From an uncultured Chloroflexota bacterium (GTDB lineage: Bacteria > Chloroflexota > Anaerolineae > Promineifilales > Promineifilaceae), in the NCBI GenBank assembly GCA_900696625.1, contig CAADGU010000519.1, forward strand, positions 1 through 55,315: a DNA stretch of 55,315 bases. The letters are read 5' to 3'. Numbering within the stretch: position 1 is the stretch's first letter; each line of letters opens with the position of its first letter. The notes below the pieces were generated by a model. That model did no database searches. It was not told the DNA's origin and saw only the letters and a list, made by a program, of their open reading frames with translations. Position numbers and translations under genes: made by a program. This document shows positions 39,556 to 48,196 of the stretch, in pieces.

Positions 39556-39822
39556 CTAAAATTCCACATCGTCTATGATGCCGACGATGACGGCGCGGAC
39601 GGGGGCGACGGCGCGCTGCAAAATCTGGCGAGCGCCGTTGCCTTCATCCATCACCAGCACCCGGTCGCCTATGCCAGCCTGTACTACGTCCACGCAAATG
39701 TCATACGCGCCGGTTGGCTCCCCGTCGGGGTCTAGCTGATCCACAATGAGCAGTTTACGGCCGTGAAACGCCTCATGTTTGATGGTGGCAACGACCGTGC
39801 CGGTGACTAAACCTATGTACAT
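39556..39822 (-). CDS. BMC pentameric vertex protein, EutN/CcmL family (1)
   Basis: An 88-residue shell vertex protein. It begins MYIGLVTGTVVATIKHEAFHGRKLLIVDQLD, the N-terminal strand and loop of the family, then CVDVVQAGIGDRVLVMDEGNGARQIL and VRAVIVGIIDDVEF. Five copies cap the vertices of a bacterial microcompartment. It is one of three paralogues in the locus; different vertex proteins often coexist in one shell. It is the last shell gene at this end of the locus. Confidence 0.93.
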   Translation of the reverse strand: MYIGLVTGTVVATIKHEAFHGRKLLIVDQLDPDGEPTGAYDICVDVVQAGIGDRVLVMDEGNGARQILQRAVAPVRAVIVGIIDDVEF

Positions 39823-39829
39823 AGTTGGT

Positions 39830-39889
39830 AATTGGGTAATTGGGTAATTGAGTGAACGTTGAAATTACTCAATTACTCAATTGCTTCCT
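39830..39889. repeat. TAATTGGG-type inverted array
   Basis: Three TAATTGGG/TAATTGAG units, a short spacer, then ATTACTCA units and AATTG. The stop codon of the second pentamer gene (39877-39879) lies inside it. Confidence 0.85.
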
Positions 39890-40149
39890 TGCACGTCATC
39901 CACAATGCCCACAATCGCGTGGTCAACCGGGACAAAGGTGTTGGGCAGCGCCTGGGCGGCTTCGCGGCTGCCGACGATAAAAACCAGCGTGTCTGGGCCG
40001 GCCTGGGCAGTGGCGTCGGCGGCAACGACCGGCTCCCCTTTGGGCTGCTGCTGTTTGCTTAGTGGCTGCACAATCAGGAACTTGATCCCTTCCAGCCCTT
40101 CATATTTTTGGGTGGCAACCACCGTGCCAATCACTTTTGCCAGTTGCAT
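39877..40149 (-). CDS. BMC pentameric vertex protein, EutN/CcmL family (2)
   Basis: The 90-residue product has the family layout: MQLAKVIGTVVATQKYEGLEGIKFLIVQPL, then AADATAQAGPDTLVFIVGSREAAQAL and VDHAIVGIVDDV. A Gln/Lys-rich insert (SKQQQPKGEP) enlarges the loop after the third strand. It is located between pentamer 1 and the tandem-domain shell gene. The gene's final codon pair and stop overlap a TAATTGAG array. Confidence 0.93.
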   Translation of the reverse strand: MQLAKVIGTVVATQKYEGLEGIKFLIVQPLSKQQQPKGEPVVAADATAQAGPDTLVFIVGSREAAQALPNTFVPVDHAIVGIVDDVQGSN

Positions 40150-40218: not shown

Positions 40219-40806
40219 CTAAGCAGGTTCCCAACTGAAATGGCCGCCAAAACGGCCGTGCCGGTTCACATTATCCCACATTTCCGGGTGCAGTTGGGGG
40301 ATGACGGCCTGGCGTAAAAGATGTGGTGAGGCGACGGCCGTGCCCAGGGCTACGGCCGTTTCCACATCGGCCACCAATCCGGTAAACAAGACCAACCCTT
40401 TGCCGCCCAATCCATCCGCCAGCCGCAGTTGCAACAGCGATACCTCGGCCCCTTTTACGCCGGCATCGGCGGCGTGAATGGCGGCGGCTACCGTTTGGGT
40501 TTCCACCACCCCCAGCGCATCGGCCTCTTGCACTTGCCGTTCGCCGCCAAGCGCCCGCACGACCTCATGGTGTACATTGGGTAGAAATATCATGTCGCGC
40601 AGAGCGGCCTGCCCGGTTTCTTTGCCTGCCTGTACCGCTTCTTGCACCGCGGCCACGTCCCCCACCACCAACACCAGGTAATATCCCGGCTGCACCGTGC
40701 CCGTTTGAATCAGGCTAACCGGCGCGCGCTTCACCATCGCATCCCCGGCCATAATGCCGGTAGCAATGCTGTTAAATTCGAGTAAGGCCAGCGCCGGAAA
40801 ATCCAT
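40219..40806 (-). CDS. Tandem BMC-domain shell protein (BMC-T)
   Basis: A 195-residue protein with two BMC domains. The first (residues 1-90) reads ALALLEFNSIATGIMAGDAMVKRAPVSLI...YYLVLVVGDVAAVQEAVQAG. The second (about 95-180) reads ALGVVETQTVAAAIHAADAGVKGAEVSLLQLRLADGLGGKGLVLFTGLVADVETAVALG. BMC-T proteins form pseudohexameric trimers that tile the shell; some open and close a large pore. The C-terminal tail (HPEMWDNVNRHGRFGG) is unusual. It is flanked by pentamer genes on one side and the ATPase gene on the other. Confidence 0.92.
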   Translation of the reverse strand: MDFPALALLEFNSIATGIMAGDAMVKRAPVSLIQTGTVQPGYYLVLVVGDVAAVQEAVQAGKETGQAALRDMIFLPNVHHEVVRALGGERQVQEADALGVVETQTVAAAIHAADAGVKGAEVSLLQLRLADGLGGKGLVLFTGLVADVETAVALGTAVASPHLLRQAVIPQLHPEMWDNVNRHGRFGGHFSWEPA

Positions 40807-40863: not shown

Positions 40864-41982
40864 TCACCCCTGCGTTGCAACCCGCTGCCAGATGGCTTCG
40901 GCCATGCGTTTGATGACAGTGGGTAAGGGGCTTTTGGCGGATGTCAGGGTCAGGGGGACGCCTTGTGACATGGCGCGAGATTGGTTGGTGTCGTAGCCGA
41001 TCAGAAATGAGACCTTCGTGTTCAGCCCGCGTTCGACAGCTGCCTGGGGCAGTTGGGATTCAGGAGTTGGCTGGTTCAATATGTGCGATTTGCGTTTGAC
41101 TGTGATACCCGCTTTGGTAATGAGGCGGTTGAGCTGCACGGCCGTTTGCACCGACACCACTTCCGGCGTTACTACATGCAGCGTCATATCGGCGGCGGAC
41201 ACGGCCGTGATGAAAGCCGGTGAAAATACATTCGGCGCGTCAATCACCGTAAACGCCACCTGATGTCGTAAGATGTCCAATATCGCGCGGGTGTTTTCTT
41301 CCGAGGGCATCATCGGGGAAACTGGTTTGGCCGGCGCCGCCAGTACCCGTAGGCCAGAGGGATGAATGACCAGGCGCTCTTTTAACGCCGTCCAGTCTAG
41401 ATTGTCCGGTAATTCGGTCCACGAAGACCGGGCTTGTAGCCGCATATGCATAACCGTCTGGCTGCCGGTGGGCGATAAATCTACCAGGCACACCTCTTGT
41501 TGGCTTACCCGGCGCAGCGCCGCTGCCAGATTCACTGCCAGCGTGGTACGGCCTGTGCCGCCACGAAAGCCAAATAACGTTACCACCACCCCTTCTTCCT
41601 GCTTTTTCTGGCCTCCTTTTTTTGCCAACAGACCATCCACCCGTTCAATCAATTCCTGTGAAGTAACGGGTTTGCTCAGATAATCATCCGCACCGCTTTT
41701 CAGGGCGGTGGTACGGTCAATTTCTTGCGAGCGGGCGGTAAGAACCAAAATGGGCAAATCTTCCAGGTGTTTATTGCCCCGAATTTCGCGGGAAATATCA
41801 TGCCCACTTAAATTGGGCATCATCACATCCAGCACCAATAAATCGGGTTTGTCTGTACGCACCTGCTCCAAACCATCAACCGGATTGCTAATTAGCGTGA
41901 CGGTATGCCCGCCTCGTTCCAGCATAAGGCCAACCATGCGTAGCAATTGTTCATCGTCGTCAATCACGTAGATTCGGGCCAC
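40864..41982 (-). CDS. Response-regulator receiver fused to a MinD/CpaE-like ATPase
   Basis: A 372-residue fusion. Residues 1-120 are a complete receiver domain: acidic pocket DDD at 8-10, phospho-acceptor Asp52 in LLVLDVMMPNLSG, and Lys104 in YLSKP. Residues 130-372 are a ParA/MinD fold of the CpaE/TadZ type. Its deviant Walker A is GFRGGTGRTT, with Arg140 and Arg145 where active members have Lys, and VCLVDLSPTGSQT and FTVIDAPNVFSPA follow. The start is GTG with GAGGAGAGG upstream. It sits inside the BMC locus, 17 bp after the unknown gene. It may localise or regulate the compartments, by analogy with McdA (inference). Confidence 0.85.
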   Translation of the reverse strand: MARIYVIDDDEQLLRMVGLMLERGGHTVTLISNPVDGLEQVRTDKPDLLVLDVMMPNLSGHDISREIRGNKHLEDLPILVLTARSQEIDRTTALKSGADDYLSKPVTSQELIERVDGLLAKKGGQKKQEEGVVVTLFGFRGGTGRTTLAVNLAAALRRVSQQEVCLVDLSPTGSQTVMHMRLQARSSWTELPDNLDWTALKERLVIHPSGLRVLAAPAKPVSPMMPSEENTRAILDILRHQVAFTVIDAPNVFSPAFITAVSAADMTLHVVTPEVVSVQTAVQLNRLITKAGITVKRKSHILNQPTPESQLPQAAVERGLNTKVSFLIGYDTNQSRAMSQGVPLTLTSAKSPLPTVIKRMAEAIWQRVATQG

Positions 41983-41999: not shown

Positions 42000-42533
42000 T
42001 CATGGAGTTTGACTCAAGTCCAAACAGAAGATACCAATGCGCTCTTTTTGCACCAAAATAAGATCGCCGCTGTAGGAAATCTCTGGCGCACTTGAGGCGG
42101 ATGCTTTGGCATCGAATATCAATTGAAACCGTCCCATGGATTGTACCAGAATTTCACGAGCAGATGGTTTTCCTTCGTGGATGACTTCGCCCTGAATTTC
42201 AAAGGAGGGCACGGTGAGAAAGGCGGGGATGTGCCGGCCACGTGTGAAAACGCTACGGCCGTGCTGTGTACCCACCGGTATACCATCGCGCCGGTCATTC
42301 AAAACGATGAAGTTGATATTGTCCTTACGGAAAGAGGCCAGTTTGTAGTTGGCAATGATAATACCCGGTTCATGGATGCGCGAAATGTAGGCATCTTGCA
42401 ATTCCAGGAATTTGGAATTGGGATTGCCCAATTCGGCATGAATGCCACCGGTGCCCACCAACGCCCGGCCCGTTACCCGGTAAGCATCTGTAAACAGGTC
42501 AAGATTGATCAGATTGCGTGCGCCAATACTCAT
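42000..42533 (-). CDS. Conserved-looking protein of unknown function within the BMC locus
   Basis: A 177-residue, beta-rich, soluble protein without signal peptide or membrane helices. Visible features are a basic central part (SFRKDNINFIVLNDRRDGIPVGTQHGRS) and a hydrophobic C-terminal pair of strands (GDLILVQKERIGIFCLDL). I recognise no family. AAGGAG is well placed before the ATG. It is transcribed together with the receiver-ATPase fusion (17 bp apart), so the two may work as a pair, with this protein as adaptor to the compartment; this is inference only. Confidence 0.7.
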   Translation of the reverse strand: MSIGARNLINLDLFTDAYRVTGRALVGTGGIHAELGNPNSKFLELQDAYISRIHEPGIIIANYKLASFRKDNINFIVLNDRRDGIPVGTQHGRSVFTRGRHIPAFLTVPSFEIQGEVIHEGKPSAREILVQSMGRFQLIFDAKASASSAPEISYSGDLILVQKERIGIFCLDLSQTP

Positions 42534-42587: not shown

Positions 42588-44045
42588 TTATACAATCCGA
42601 AACGAGTCTACCAGGGTGCAGCGCCGCAGGCGGCTAAAACTGCGTGGGCCGGTCACCCCTTCGCCGGTGGGGCTGGCAATGGTAAACGAGCAAAAGCCTT
42701 CGCCGCCGTAGCCCAACCCGGCCAGACACGGTCCATTTTTCACAAAAATACTACAATCCATCTCACGGGCCATGCGGCTGAGGTTATCCAGGTTTTTAGA
42801 GTGCATCACGGCCGTGTGCCGGAAACCATGTTCCGCTGCCACTGCCAGGTCTATGCCTTCGTCGGCATTGGCTACCCGCACCACCGGCATTATGGGCATC
42901 ATTTGCTCTGACCAGACGGCTGGATGATTTTGATCCACTTCCACCACAATTTGCCTTACTTCTGGCCCGGCAGTGATACCAATTTCGGCCAGCAGGACGC
43001 TGGCGTTTTTGCCGATGAAATTTTTGTTCATGTCCGCCGGTTGGCGTGGGCCACGATCTTTCACCGTTACCGCCTGCCACAGCCGGTTGAACTGCCAGCT
43101 ATTGATTTTTACTGCGCCGTAGCGGGTCATGGCACTGATGAGATCGTCGCAAATGGCAGCGACGGCAAATGTCTCTTTTTCGGTAGTACAAACGATATTA
43201 TTGTCAAACGAACCGCCAATGACAATATCCCGCCCCGCCTGTTCAATATCGGCCGTTTCGTCTACCACCACTGGCGGGTTACCCGGCCCGGCGCAGACTG
43301 CCCGTTTGCCGCTTTGCATGGCGGCGCGGACGACGGGTGTACCGCCCGTCACGGTGAGTAATCGGATATTTTTGTGGTGCATGAGGGCGGTGGCGGTTTC
43401 CAGGGTGGGGTGGGCTACGGCCGTGAGCAAATTCCCCGGTCCTCCGGCCTTCCGTATTGCCTGGTTCAATATCTGTACCGTCCGGTTGGAGCAATTTTGG
43501 GTACTGGGGTGGGCGTTGAACACCACCCCGTTGCCGGCGGCGACCATGGCGATGGCATTACAAATAACGGTGCTGGTGGGATTGGTGCTGGGCGTCAGCG
43601 CCCCAATCAGTCCATAAGGCGCCCATTCCGTCAGGGTCAGGCCACCATCGCCGCTCCAGGCCACCGGTTCCAGCGCTTCTGTTCCCTGCGTTTTGTTGGC
43701 ATTGAGGCTGTTTTTGAGGACTTTGTCTTCCACGCGCCCCATGCCCGATTCGCTGTGGGCCATTTCGGCCAACACCTGGGCGTGTTCGCGCCCGGCCTGG
43801 CGCATGTGCGCCACCATATGTTTGCGGATTTCCAGGGGAAGTTGGTTGAGTTGTTGGAAGGCGATTTTGGCGGCGGCCACGGCTTCATCCAGGGTGGGGA
43901 AGATGCCATCCTGCCCGGTGGCTGGCGGTTGGTGGTTGGCAGCTGGTGGTGGGGGAGACGGCCGTGCCGCCACTGCTACAGGCGGCGCTGTGCCCACTTC
44001 GCCCATCACCCGATCAATGATTGCCTGGATTTCTTCGTCTTTCAT
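42588..44045 (-). CDS. CoA-acylating aldehyde dehydrogenase of the BMC core
   Basis: A 485-residue enzyme of the EutE/PduP class: oxidises an aldehyde, with CoA and NAD+, to an acyl-CoA inside the compartment. The catalytic Cys is at about residue 286 (DNNIVCTTEKE); ALTPSTNPTSTVICNAIAMVAAGN and TVTGGTPVVRAAMQSGKRAV are the cofactor-binding parts. The first 18 residues, KDEEIQAIIDRVMGEVG, form an amphipathic helix joined by a Pro/Ala linker (residues 19-45), as expected of an encapsulation peptide. With DeoC in the same locus the likely substrate is acetaldehyde (inference). Confidence 0.93.
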   Translation of the reverse strand: MKDEEIQAIIDRVMGEVGTAPPVAVAARPSPPPPAANHQPPATGQDGIFPTLDEAVAAAKIAFQQLNQLPLEIRKHMVAHMRQAGREHAQVLAEMAHSESGMGRVEDKVLKNSLNANKTQGTEALEPVAWSGDGGLTLTEWAPYGLIGALTPSTNPTSTVICNAIAMVAAGNGVVFNAHPSTQNCSNRTVQILNQAIRKAGGPGNLLTAVAHPTLETATALMHHKNIRLLTVTGGTPVVRAAMQSGKRAVCAGPGNPPVVVDETADIEQAGRDIVIGGSFDNNIVCTTEKETFAVAAICDDLISAMTRYGAVKINSWQFNRLWQAVTVKDRGPRQPADMNKNFIGKNASVLLAEIGITAGPEVRQIVVEVDQNHPAVWSEQMMPIMPVVRVANADEGIDLAVAAEHGFRHTAVMHSKNLDNLSRMAREMDCSIFVKNGPCLAGLGYGGEGFCSFTIASPTGEGVTGPRSFSRLRRCTLVDSFRIV

Positions 44046-44120: not shown

Positions 44121-44411
44121 CTACTCTTTGTGGTATTTCTCCATACCATCCACTTCCCAGGTGTCCACAATCGCCATAATAACGGCATCACACGGCCGTT
44201 TGTCGGTCATCACCGTTTGCCGGGCGGAACTGCCGGTGGCCACCATGACCACTTCGCCGATGCCTGCGCCCACGGCATCGGCGGCGACCACATAGCCGCT
44301 TTCTTCTTCATTTTCCACGCTCAGGCGGCGCACCACCAGAAACTTCAGCCCATCCAGCGAACTTTCCTTGCGCGTGGCCACCAGTGTGCCTACGACTTTG
44401 CCGAGATACAT
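44121..44411 (-). CDS. BMC pentameric vertex protein, EutN/CcmL family (3)
   Basis: A 96-residue vertex protein: MYLGKVVGTLVATRKESSLDGLKFLVVRRL, then YVVAADAVGAGIGEVVMVATGSSARQTV, and CDAVIMAIVDTWEVDG. It is longer than the other two at the C-terminus (EVDGMEKYHKE). Located between the aldehyde dehydrogenase and the BMC-H genes. Three distinct vertex proteins in one locus suggest either mixed vertices or different affinity for cargo. Confidence 0.93.
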   Translation of the reverse strand: MYLGKVVGTLVATRKESSLDGLKFLVVRRLSVENEEESGYVVAADAVGAGIGEVVMVATGSSARQTVMTDKRPCDAVIMAIVDTWEVDGMEKYHKE

Positions 44412-44418
44412 GGTTCTG

Positions 44419-44500
44419 TGAAGTAAGCAGTTAGCAATTAGCAGTGAGCAGTAAACTATTCACCGCTCACCGCTCACCGCTCACTACTTACTGCTCACTG
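44419..44500. repeat. GCAGTRA heptad inverted array
   Basis: AAGCAGTTAGCAATTAGCAGTGAGCAGTAA followed by CACCGCTCACCGCTCACCGCTCACTACTTACTGCTCACTG. The units have period 7. The stop codon of the BMC-H gene (44488-44490) lies inside the array. A second array is at 44.80 kb. Confidence 0.88.
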
Positions 44501-44781
44501 GCATCCTGCCGGCCCAACGGCAAAGTCTGGTCTACATTGGGGTGTGGCCGAGGAATGACATGGATGGCGACCACTTCGCCCACTTTTTCAGCGCCGCGCG
44601 CGCCAGCCTCAACAGCCGCTTTCACGGCGGCCACATCACCACGCACAACGGCCGTGACATACCCGCCGCCGGTCTTTTCGTAGCCTACCAGTTCCACGCG
44701 GGCCGCCTTTACCATCGCGTCGGACGCTTCCACCATGGCCGCAAAACTGCGACACTCGATCATGCCTAATGCTTCTGTCAT
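44488..44781 (-). CDS. BMC-H hexameric shell protein
   Basis: A 97-residue single-domain shell protein: [66 protein letters not shown], the canonical Pfam BMC pattern. The pore loop, in the position before GGGYVT, is KTGGGY. It forms the hexameric tiles that make most of a shell's facets and is the only BMC-H gene visible in the locus. AGGAGG precedes the ATG, the strongest ribosome site in the cluster, in line with a need for high expression. The C-terminal tail ([15 protein letters not shown]) is short and polar; its last codons and stop lie inside a repeat array. Confidence 0.96.
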
Positions 44782-44866: not shown

Positions 44867-45505
44867 TTACTCCTGTTTACTCCCATCTTGCGCCCGGCCG
44901 GAGACACTTTCTACGGCCGTAATTGCCGCCTGATACCCGGCCATAATATCGCGTTCTTCACCACCCAGGTAAACCCGGCCAAAGCTGCCAAAGGCCTGCA
45001 CCTCCAAAATGTTCAGGTCGGCCCGTTTTTCGGCTTCGTTGGCGGCCAGCGCCGCATAAGCCGCCGGAGCTACTTCCATCACATACAGCGTTTGCCCGGC
45101 CAGAATCATGTGCCCATGCCGCATCCGGTTGATCAGCTGCACCTGGTGGGCATCAATATGGCGGATGATCTGGCTGGAGACCACTTTCGGTTTCAGGCGG
45201 TCTTCTTCTTTCAACCCCAGTGCGTCCAGAATGGCCGCCCCGGCGGCGCGCACATCGGCCTGGCTGGATGAATGCACCTCCAGCAAACCATACAAGCGCT
45301 CCACAATTTGCATGCCCGGCCGTACCCCCACCGCTTTGAGGGCGATGTCGGTAATACGGTTGATTTCAATGCCGGGCGAGATCTCGATCCACAGGGAAGC
45401 ATCACCGGGCAGGGGCAAAAAGCCACGCGCTACCGTACCCAGGAACGCCGCATGTTGTGGCTGCAAACTGTCTAAAAAAACGTAACTGCGTAAATCAACA
45501 GACAT
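44867..45505 (-). CDS. Divergent tandem BMC-domain shell-like protein
   Basis: A 212-residue protein that reads as two degenerate BMC folds. The first is near residues 48-100 ([43 protein letters not shown]). The second is near 135-205 ([61 protein letters not shown]). The classic GxVxTVxRGD pore segments are altered. Assignment as a BMC-T variant rests on this pattern and on its place between BMC-H and the zinc-ribbon gene. It may instead be a shell-associated protein not in the tiling. Confidence 0.7.
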
Positions 45506-45507
45506 GG

Positions 45508-45777
45508 TTAACTCATCCTGTCACCGGGCTGCCAGTGGCCCAACTGCTCATTCAGCGCCAGCCATTCGGCCGTTTCTGGTGGATATTCTGCTTCGGTCAA
45601 TTGGTCAAGCAAGTATTGCAATTGTTCCAGGAAACCTTCGTTAAACAACACATCGCCGCACATATCACAGCGATAAGCAGACACATCAGGCACTACCAAC
45701 ATCTGTTCGTCCAGAAAGGTAATAAACGGCATTTTGGTGCTGTGGAGATGGCCGATGCGGCAGTGGTTACATTTCAT
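45508..45777 (-). CDS. YgiT-type zinc-ribbon protein
   Basis: An 89-residue protein with CNHC near residue 3 and CDMC near residue 37, the four-cysteine zinc ribbon of the YgiT/MqsA N-terminal type, followed by an acidic helical tail. No helix-turn-helix domain is present, so it is not a full MqsA antitoxin. Its start follows AAGGGA, and its stop is two bases before the divergent shell gene start, so the two are translationally coupled. The role is unknown. Confidence 0.8.
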
Positions 45778-45833: not shown

Positions 45834-46736
45834 TCAATAGTTCGTTTTGGCGGTGGTGACAGTTTCACCGGCTGCTTCGCGCACAATGCGCACACCGGCG
45901 CTGGCGCCAATGCGGGTAGCGCCGGCGGCAATCATGGCCTGGGCATCCTGGTAAGAGCCAACACCTCCGGCTGCTTTAATGCCCATCTCTGCGCCGACCA
46001 CCCGGCGCATCAGGGCTACATCCGGCACGGTGGCCCCGCCAGGGCCAAAGCCGGTGGAGGTCTTGACAAAATCGGCCCCGGCCGTTTTGGCAAGCTGGCA
46101 GGCAATCACCTTCTCTTCGTCGGTGAGCAGTGCGGCTTCGATGATCACTTTGACCAGGGCGTTGCCGGCATGGGCGGCGCGAACAACTGCACCGATGTCT
46201 TCCAACACCAGGCGGTAATCTTGTGACTTGAGTGCGCCAATGTTGATCACCATATCAATTTCGGTTGCACCGTCGCGGATGGCTTGTTGGGTTTCATACG
46301 CTTTCACGGCGCTGGGTGTAGCCCCCAGCGGAAAGCCAACAACGGTGCAAACTTTGACGCTGCTGTCCTTAAGCAGTTGGGCAGATAGTTTCACATTTGT
46401 GGGATTCACGCAAACGGAGGCGAATTGGTATTTGCGGGCTTCGTAACAAAGTTGGGCGATTTGCTCCTGAGAGGCGTCCGCTTTGAGCAGGGTGTGGTCA
46501 ATGGTGTGGCTGATGGCCTGGTCGGTGGGGTGGGTGCCCAGGCTGGCGGTGAGGCGGGTGGCGCCGGCCTGCATCACCTGGTGAACTTTATCGGTGCAGT
46601 GTTGGGCGCAGGAGCCATCCTGGCAGTTGCAGCCGGTGGCAGGCACGGCCGTACCACCCTCCATCTGGCTTAAGCGCAGCCACACTTCATGGGTGACCTC
46701 TTCGATGAGTCGTTCTAAAGTTGCCTGGTTTACCAT
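45834..46736 (-). CDS. deoC: Deoxyribose-phosphate aldolase with BMC-targeting extension
   Basis: Cleaves 2-deoxyribose-5-phosphate to acetaldehyde and glyceraldehyde-3-phosphate. The 300-residue product has the aldolase core from about residue 75: [47 protein letters not shown], and the Schiff-base Lys in [10 protein letters not shown]. The extra 75 N-terminal residues consist of an amphipathic helix ([19 protein letters not shown]) and a linker with four cysteines (Cys36, 38, 43, 47; CxCx4Cx3C). The helix is a likely encapsulation peptide. The Cys cluster may bind metal or be redox-active (inference). Confidence 0.94.
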
Positions 46737-46740
46737 TTTG

Positions 46741-46797
46741 TAAACCGTAATCCGTAAAGCGTAATCCGTAATCCGATGTCGGGTTACGGATTACGCA
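46741..46797. repeat. GTAATCC heptad inverted array
   Basis: CCGTAATCCGTAAAGCGTAATCCGTAATCCG then the complement CGGGTTACGGATTACGC. The stop codon of the rpiB-like gene (46784-46786) and its last residues RNP lie in the array; it fills the gap to deoC. Confidence 0.85.
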
Positions 46798-47590
46798 TAA
46801 ATCGTTTGCTTATCGCGTCTATCTTGTCTACGCGGCGGGCGTGACGGCCACCGCCGAAGTCAGTGTTGAGCCAGGTGGTGACAATCTGGTTAGCCAGGGC
46901 GGGGCCAATGAGGCCGGCGCCTAACGTCAGCACGTTGGCGTCGTTGTGTTCACGGCTGTTCACGGCCGTTGCCTGATCATAACACATCGCCGCCCGCACG
47001 CCTGGAACCTTGTTGGCCGCCATGCAGCTGCCAATGCCCGCGCCGTCAATCATAATGCCGCGCCAGGCACGGCCGTTGGCCACCAACTGCGCCACCGCAT
47101 AGGCATAATCCGGGTAATCTACCGCCTCGCTGCTGTGCGCGCCACAGTCAATCACCGGGTAACCGGCCTTTGCCAGCATCCCTTTGAGTTGTTCTTTCAA
47201 CTGGTAGCCGCCGTGATCCGCACCCAAAGCCACAGCACGGTTATCGGTTATCGGTGAACGGTAATCGGTAGTCGGGCTCTGGACCTCGGATTTCGGGCTT
47301 CGGACCTCGATTTGAATCCCTCTCTCCAGGGCGGCTTCGCGGGCCAGGGGGGTGATCAGGCTGCCGGGGGGCGCGGTGTAGGTGGAGTGGGCGGGCAACT
47401 GCCGAATGGCGTCGGCGTCTATGATGGGGCGAGAAGGGGTGGGGGGTGTACGGCCGTCTACCCGCTCACTTGCTGATGTAAACGGCGGCTGCCCCACTGT
47501 GCGGGCGACCACCTGCCGCACCATCTGTTCAATTTCCTCACGCCGGTAGCCCATCATTTTGTTTGCGATGAGTGTTGCCCCAGCACTCAT
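46784..47590 (-). CDS. rpiB: RpiB/LacAB-family sugar-phosphate isomerase with BMC-targeting extension
   Basis: A 268-residue protein. The C-terminal domain (from about residue 115) is Rpi[60 protein letters not shown], and [14 protein letters not shown]. It likely interconverts ribose/ribulose-5-phosphate or a related sugar phosphate. Residues about 14-35 ([19 protein letters not shown]) form an amphipathic helix like an encapsulation peptide, then a proline-rich linker and an [16 protein letters not shown] segment. The linker residues [24 protein letters not shown] are read through an interspersed repeat. ATG 47590 is preferred to GTG 47596. Confidence 0.92.
47235..47312. repeat. CGGTTATCGGT/TTCGGGCT repeat translated as the linker of rpiB
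   Basis: Heptad-like units (GGTTATCGGTTATCGGTGAACGGTAATCGGTAGTCGG, then GGACCTCGGATTTCGGGCTTCGGACCTCG) of the kind seen between genes elsewhere. Here they encode about 24 residues linking the targeting region to the RpiB domain, in frame. Confidence 0.8.
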
Positions 47591-47599
47591 CGCCACTCT

Positions 47600-48196
47600 C
47601 TATTCAATCGGATGTGTAAAATGGGGCACCCGCCCCCCCTCTGCAAATGGGTAGTAGATGAATATCGCTTTGCCGATAATGTTCTCTTTGGGTAGATATT
47701 GCCAGCTATGAGAATCGCTGGAACTGTTCCGGTTATCACCCAGGACAAAATACTCCCCTTCCGGCACCGTCCAGCTGCCGCTGTATGTCGGTTCTGCCTG
47801 TATGTATGGCTCATCCAAAATGACGCCATTTACCTTTACATGTTGGTCAGATATTTCAATCTGATCTCCCGGTAAACCAATCACGCGCTTGATCAGGTTC
47901 AGTTCACTGTTGGGGTGATGAAAGACGATGATGTCCCCGCGCTGTGGTTCGTTCAGATAATAAGACAGGTTATTGATGAGCAGATATTCGCCGTGCTGCA
48001 ACGTGGGATTCATGCTGCTGCCGTCAATCCGATATCGCCCCACCAGGCTGTTCACCAGCCAGAAAATGAAAAAGGTGAGTAACAGCGTCTCGACGATTTC
48101 CCGTACTACCACCCCGGCTGGCTGCCGAATTTCACTGCTTGTGGAGATGTCTGGTATGGTGGGGGATAGTTGGGTATTAGACTCAGAAAGAGCCAT
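47600..48196 (-). CDS. lepB: Signal peptidase I
   Basis: A 198-residue membrane protease that removes signal peptides from exported proteins. One helix near residues 35-52; catalytic Ser in GSSMNPTLQHGEYLLI; catalytic Lys in LIKRVIGLPGDQIEI; box E GEYFVLGDNRNSSSDS. It is next to the BMC genes on the same strand (9 bp from rpiB's start), but has no known link to them. AGGAGA lies upstream of the start. Confidence 0.95.
   Translation of the reverse strand: MALSESNTQLSPTIPDISTSSEIRQPAGVVVREIVETLLLTFFIFWLVNSLVGRYRIDGSSMNPTLQHGEYLLINNLSYYLNEPQRGDIIVFHHPNSELNLIKRVIGLPGDQIEISDQHVKVNGVILDEPYIQAEPTYSGSWTVPEGEYFVLGDNRNSSSDSHSWQYLPKENIIGKAIFIYYPFAEGGRVPHFTHPIE

Follow-up and report, generated by a model that had tools for sequence, protein, structure and literature searches.

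A receiver-MinD-fold fusion protein and its partner, encoded within and outside SPU microcompartment loci of Chloroflexota

The window analysed here, a stretch of 55,315 nucleotides from an uncultured Chloroflexota bacterium, contains a microcompartment (BMC) locus whose genes all lie on the minus strand. Signal peptidase I, RpiB, DeoC, a zinc-finger protein, a CcmP-type BMC-T, BMC-H and BMC-P are followed by an aldehyde dehydrogenase, a protein of 177 amino acids (hereafter the partner), a fusion of a receiver (REC) domain with a MinD fold, a further BMC-T and two BMC-P proteins. In the order of transcription, the features are as follows.

47600..48196, minus strand: signal peptidase I, the conserved head of the locus
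45834..47596, minus strand: DeoC (45834-46736) and RpiB (46784-47596), both N-terminally extended, the SPU signature enzymes
45508..45777, minus strand: YgiT-like zinc-finger protein (match just under the cut-off)
44867..45505, minus strand: CcmP-type BMC-T shell protein (NF053796, 381 bits, cut-off 340)
44121..44781, minus strand: BMC-H (44488-44781) and the third BMC-P (44121-44411)
42588..44045, minus strand: BMC aldehyde dehydrogenase
42000..42533, minus strand: partner, 177 amino acids, putative diverged DUF6812 protein, predicted to form two Sm-like barrels in tandem, separated by 17 nt from the downstream fusion gene
40864..41982, minus strand: REC-MinD-fold fusion protein, 372 amino acids
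41620..41982, minus strand: receiver domain of the fusion, residues 1-121, with D8/D9, D52 (41827-41829), T82 and K104
41542..41565, minus strand: degenerate P-loop of the fusion, RGGTGRTT, residues 140-147
40219..40806, minus strand: BMC-T (PduT-like) shell protein, immediately 3' of the fusion
39556..40149, minus strand: two BMC-P (EutN/CcmL) vertex proteins

SPU loci are defined in the BMC catalogue by DeoC together with RpiB, and SPU6 is assigned there to Anaerolineae (PMC8217296). In the window, DeoC (PF01791) and RpiB (PF02502) occur with shell genes and an aldehyde dehydrogenase, and the fusion gene, together with that of the partner, is flanked by the genes for aldehyde dehydrogenase and BMC-T, which agrees with its earlier placement inside an SPU BMC locus. 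The intergenic gaps around partner and fusion are only 54, 17 and 57 nt, and this close spacing suggests that both are co-transcribed with the shell genes; candidate promoters and terminators at the locus were no more numerous than in shuffled sequences. The shell protein at 44867-45505 exceeds the NCBIfam cut-off for beta-carboxysome CcmP despite its SPU setting, and automatic annotation would therefore label it a carboxysome protein; the Pfam BMC model misses it. The zinc-finger protein (45508-45777) and signal peptidase I (47600-48196) keep their position at the head of the locus whether BMC genes are present or not; the former accompanies both the partner-fusion pair and SPU loci. In distant Anaerolineae (L157-L159), signal peptidase, zinc finger and DUF6812 stand together without BMC genes or fusion. 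The idea that signal peptidase, zinc finger and pair share a role was set aside, gene neighbourhood being the sole evidence found for it.

The open reading frame of the fusion runs from a GTG start at 41982 to 40864. Pfam assigns residues 4-115 to Response_reg (6.9e-27), and the MinD/ParA-class matches BcsQ, AAA_31 and CbiA start at residue 133. In the AlphaFold model (mean pLDDT 89.9) the first half is closest to receivers (3t6k, Z 23.1) and the second to structures of the ParA/MinD class, with Z 28.3 across 237 residues for 3ea0 and about 27 for MinD; the last helix, residues 352-371, aligns with the MinD core. The domain matches and the model thus bear out the fusion of receiver and MinD fold given in the preliminary description. 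The receiver, described there as a complete phospho-acceptor domain, does carry D8/D9/D10, D52, T82 and K104, the full response-regulator set of acid pair, phospho-acceptor Asp, Thr/Ser and Lys; D8, D9, D52 and K104 are invariant across 25 diverse relatives, and T82 is present in the window copy. The reading of the Walker A motif as RGGTGRTT, with Arg at both lysine positions, was likewise correct, and the motif departs from the deviant Walker A of active MinD/ParA ATPases, KGGxGKT, which has both lysines. Among the relatives the signature Lys is Arg in almost all, and the catalytic-Lys position is occupied by R, Q, K, V or T; L054, L057 and L064 carry RGGVGKTT. Because the P-loop lysine is mostly gone, most members of the family probably hydrolyse ATP weakly or not at all. 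Accurate as far as it went, the earlier description missed the strand, the partner at 42000-42533 and this family-wide variability of the P-loop lysine. The possibility that the fusion is lumen cargo was dismissed, as inspection by eye revealed no DeoC-like extension at its N- or C-terminus.

The partner of the window matches no Pfam or NCBIfam model, PF20660 included, and 4 of 21 partner relatives match DUF6812 (PF20660), the best at 4.7e-8; a literature search found no paper naming the DUF6812 family. The partner model (pLDDT 87.4) consists of two alike, beta-rich halves. Its best Foldseek matches are all Sm/LSm proteins; they agree in kind, but their scores are low (best E 0.011, Z 5.3), so that the description as a tandem Sm-like protein is a suggestion from the predicted fold only. 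The association of partner and fusion is close: among 41 GTDB species loci retrieved via the partner, all from Chloroflexota, the fusion lies directly downstream in 40 of the 40 in which the contig continues. Approached from the other side, for about 9 of 63 fusion proteins no DUF6812 gene could be detected nearby, and distant genomes contain DUF6812 without the fusion. One DUF6812 gene (L175, 7624-8160) stands directly upstream of BMC-T with no REC-MinD fusion.

The association of the fusion with BMC loci is not confined to the window. The fusion (called at E < 1e-50) is present in 49 of 118 related genomes, and BMC-domain genes are present in 58. Of the 49 carriers, 18, the window counted and several taxonomic families represented, have the fusion among BMC genes; 9 have BMC genes elsewhere in the genome, and the remaining 22 lack BMC-domain genes altogether, most of the surveyed genomes being draft MAGs. 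One such carrier, G065, is a single contig, 98% complete, with the fusion and without BMC-domain genes. Of the 41 GTDB loci, 20 are BMC-linked. On the scale of the class, with DUF6812 standing in for the fusion, 136 of 396 genomes have DUF6812 and 115 have CcmP, and the two occur together in 37 genomes vs 39.5 expected (Fisher p 0.64, kinship ignored); stricter DUF6812 scores give 22 genomes with CcmP vs 19.5 expected (p 0.46, kinship again ignored). Conversely, SPU loci of similar make-up lack both fusion and partner (L097, L098, L101, L102, L109-L115), among them L098 from a genome of three contigs that is 99% complete (G028), where the slot between aldehyde dehydrogenase and BMC-T holds a TPR protein. 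Since the fusion occurs without BMC genes and SPU loci occur without the fusion, neither needs the other. The TPR protein (L098, 8334-9920) has 528 amino acids and apparently hydrophobic C-terminal segments, and in another locus (L099, 11668-12039) a stand-alone receiver of 123 amino acids occupies the slot held elsewhere by the fusion.

Where both are present, linkage is frequent: counted by hand, it holds for 17 of the 22 genomes in the stricter set, far more than placement by chance would give, and the order aldehyde dehydrogenase, DUF6812, fusion, BMC-T recurs in several families. With this order conserved, co-option of the pair by the compartment is conceivable, though unlikely. In 3 of the 17 linked genomes the pair lies beside a BMC-P triplet and CcmP is encoded elsewhere. 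The loci L160, L161 and L172 contain DeoC with an extended N-terminus, the BMC-P triplet, DUF6812 and REC-MinD; no gene for a hexamer or CcmP lies within range, and CcmP is found elsewhere in the same genomes.

The history of the linkage was followed on a tree built from 63 fusion sequences. Along it the BMC label changes 10 times vs 18.9 times when shuffled, and at least 8 of the 10 changes are forced by well supported branches. BMC linkage is thus clustered on the fusion tree, yet it was repeatedly gained or lost, and the tree cannot separate gain from loss. DeoC has an N-terminal extension of the encapsulation kind in BMC-linked loci and none in the same place in BMC-less loci, a difference that gives a hint on whether linkage was gained or lost. 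No comparable difference is seen in the fusion, which keeps all receiver residues in BMC-less loci; whether linked or unlinked, fusions differ in their P-loop residue (R, Q, K). In a search for residues that set linked fusions apart from unlinked ones, a single variable column stood out, 219, often charged when linked; it was rejected as a marker of BMC linkage because it is confounded with phylogeny and L065 and L071 do not share it.

Kinase genes adjoin the pair in some lineages. Immediately upstream of it lies a receiver-histidine kinase in L076, identified by Pfam, and a kinase-like reading frame in L074, L083 and L085, identified by phmmer. Only 15 kinase reading frames occur in 959 kb of loci, which makes the presence of several directly upstream of the pair suggestive, although two of these loci, L074 and L076, are related. 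In most genomes no kinase adjoins the pair, and this includes the locus of the window. A GAF/PAS histidine kinase is encoded within one SPU BMC locus (L084, 7356-9587), where only the aldehyde dehydrogenase separates it from the pair; L084 and L085 belong to the same family and their upstream kinases are homologous. Such a layout would be expected of a kinase-partner-fusion module interleaved with BMC genes. In a further BMC locus (L086, 965-2011), a fusion of a receiver with a guanylate/adenylate cyclase is encoded between BMC-P and the aldehyde dehydrogenase.

We consider it probable, if well short of certain, that the fusion is the output half of an Anaerolineae two-component module that is evolutionarily independent of the microcompartment. 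The domain architecture, the conserved and variable residues, the usual partner, the independent presence and absence and the interleaving with BMC genes come directly from computation; beyond these we infer a course of events in which a histidine kinase, adjacent in a few lineages and encoded elsewhere in the genome in that of the window, would phosphorylate D52 of the receiver. Phosphorylation would alter the dimerisation or exposure of the MinD-fold scaffold, which may form a complex with the tandem Sm-like partner from the preceding gene and work with it on a common target. Since the P-loop lysines are largely lost, the switch would be the receiver and not ATP hydrolysis. The genes of the module lie amid those of the SPU operon in some lineages and stand free in others. 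Its retention in many BMC-less bacteria, usually fusion and partner together, makes an independent signalling module likelier than a BMC-positioning factor. The module, apparently undescribed so far, would combine a receiver-MinD pseudo-ATPase with a tandem Sm-like protein and, in some lineages, adjacent kinases, and it parts gene neighbourhood from function, as a protein that its context predicts to be a microcompartment positioner persists without microcompartments.

The preliminary description had interpreted the fusion as a positioning or assembly factor for microcompartments. Our data do not lend support to a factor dedicated to this purpose, given the BMC-less carriers (22 of 49), the homologous SPU loci without fusion, the independent presence of DUF6812 and CcmP, and a BMC label that changes at least eight times on the tree; the interpretation is partly supported, positioning being a possible, though unlikely, local co-option. 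In that form, phosphorylated REC-MinD would bind shell or nucleoid and space SPU microcompartments, at least in linked lineages, as a co-opted module. The slot conserved between aldehyde dehydrogenase and BMC-T in several families, the linkage in 17 of 22 genomes with both, the lone receiver that fills this slot in L099 and the ParA-type genes known from other BMC operons (PMC8262871) speak for it. However, the retention of the fusion in genomes with zero BMC genes, the near-complete genomes whose SPU loci lack it, co-occurrence at chance level, P-loop residues that do not track BMC linkage and a partner without the C-terminal aromatic residue of McdB (PMC8262871) make this unlikely. Quite unlikely, too, is the recruitment of the whole kinase, REC-pseudo-MinD and tandem-Sm module for phosphorylation control of SPU assembly or placement where both are kept; if it was recruited, the positioning principle would differ from the ATP-driven McdAB ratchet.

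A low probability also attaches to a regulator of transcription or motility of the FleN/FlhG kind, in which the MinD-fold part would bind a transcription factor and the receiver would set its activity. FleN (Z 26.4) and FlhG (Z 25.2) are among the close folds, an output role is natural for a receiver protein and the degenerate P-loop is compatible with it; however, these folds are tied with MinD and ParA, no conserved transcription-factor gene adjoins the fusion in the loci examined, and the literature consulted yielded no description of such proteins as receiver fusions. That the fusion is a CpaE/TadZ pilus-localisation protein drifted from its Tad genes is very improbable, although domain order and weakened P-loop are the same, 3fkq (TadZ of E. 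rectale) is among the Foldseek matches and the actinobacterial CpaE-type equivalog model TIGR03815 matches residues 78-355. The score of that match, 76.2 bits, is under the cut-off of 154.45, and the genome's Tad locus (C455) has a separate REC-MinD CpaE of its own beside CpaF, TadB and TadC. It had been anticipated that the fusion might occur mostly next to pilus or tad genes; instead, no tadA/cpaF, tadB, tadC or other Tad gene was found by the fusion in 41 loci with flanks of up to 10 kb, and a Tad or pilus origin was rejected on this ground. A C-terminal amphipathic membrane helix is reported for CpaE of C. crescentus; the MinD fold of the fusion closes with its usual last helix, and no helix follows. 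Both families place a receiver-like domain before a MinD fold with a deviant Walker A, which in TadZ reportedly still binds ATP for dimerisation, but the receiver of TadZ is reported as atypical (PMC13170226), whereas that of the fusion has canonical, invariant residues, and the fusion has a DUF6812 partner.

DUF6812 (PF20660) is the closest known family of the partner, some of whose relatives match it; the window copy is too diverged to do so. McdA, a carboxysome-positioning ParA that binds the nucleoid in an ATP-dependent manner, shares with the fusion the ParA/MinD fold (6non, Z 23.7) and a place in a BMC operon, but it is not among the closest folds, and the fusion differs in its receiver, in a different partner on the upstream side and in persisting without BMC genes. 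McdB is small, disordered and usually encoded downstream, with a C-terminal aromatic residue, whereas the partner is encoded upstream, well folded (pLDDT 87) and ends in SQTP; an McdAB-like system was rejected for want of these hallmarks. In contrast to MinD and archaeal MinD, the fusion lacks the P-loop lysines, carries a receiver and has no extra C-terminal helix past the fold, but it is to these proteins that its second half is most similar, in sequence (1hyq, 4e-13) as well as in fold class (Z about 25-28).
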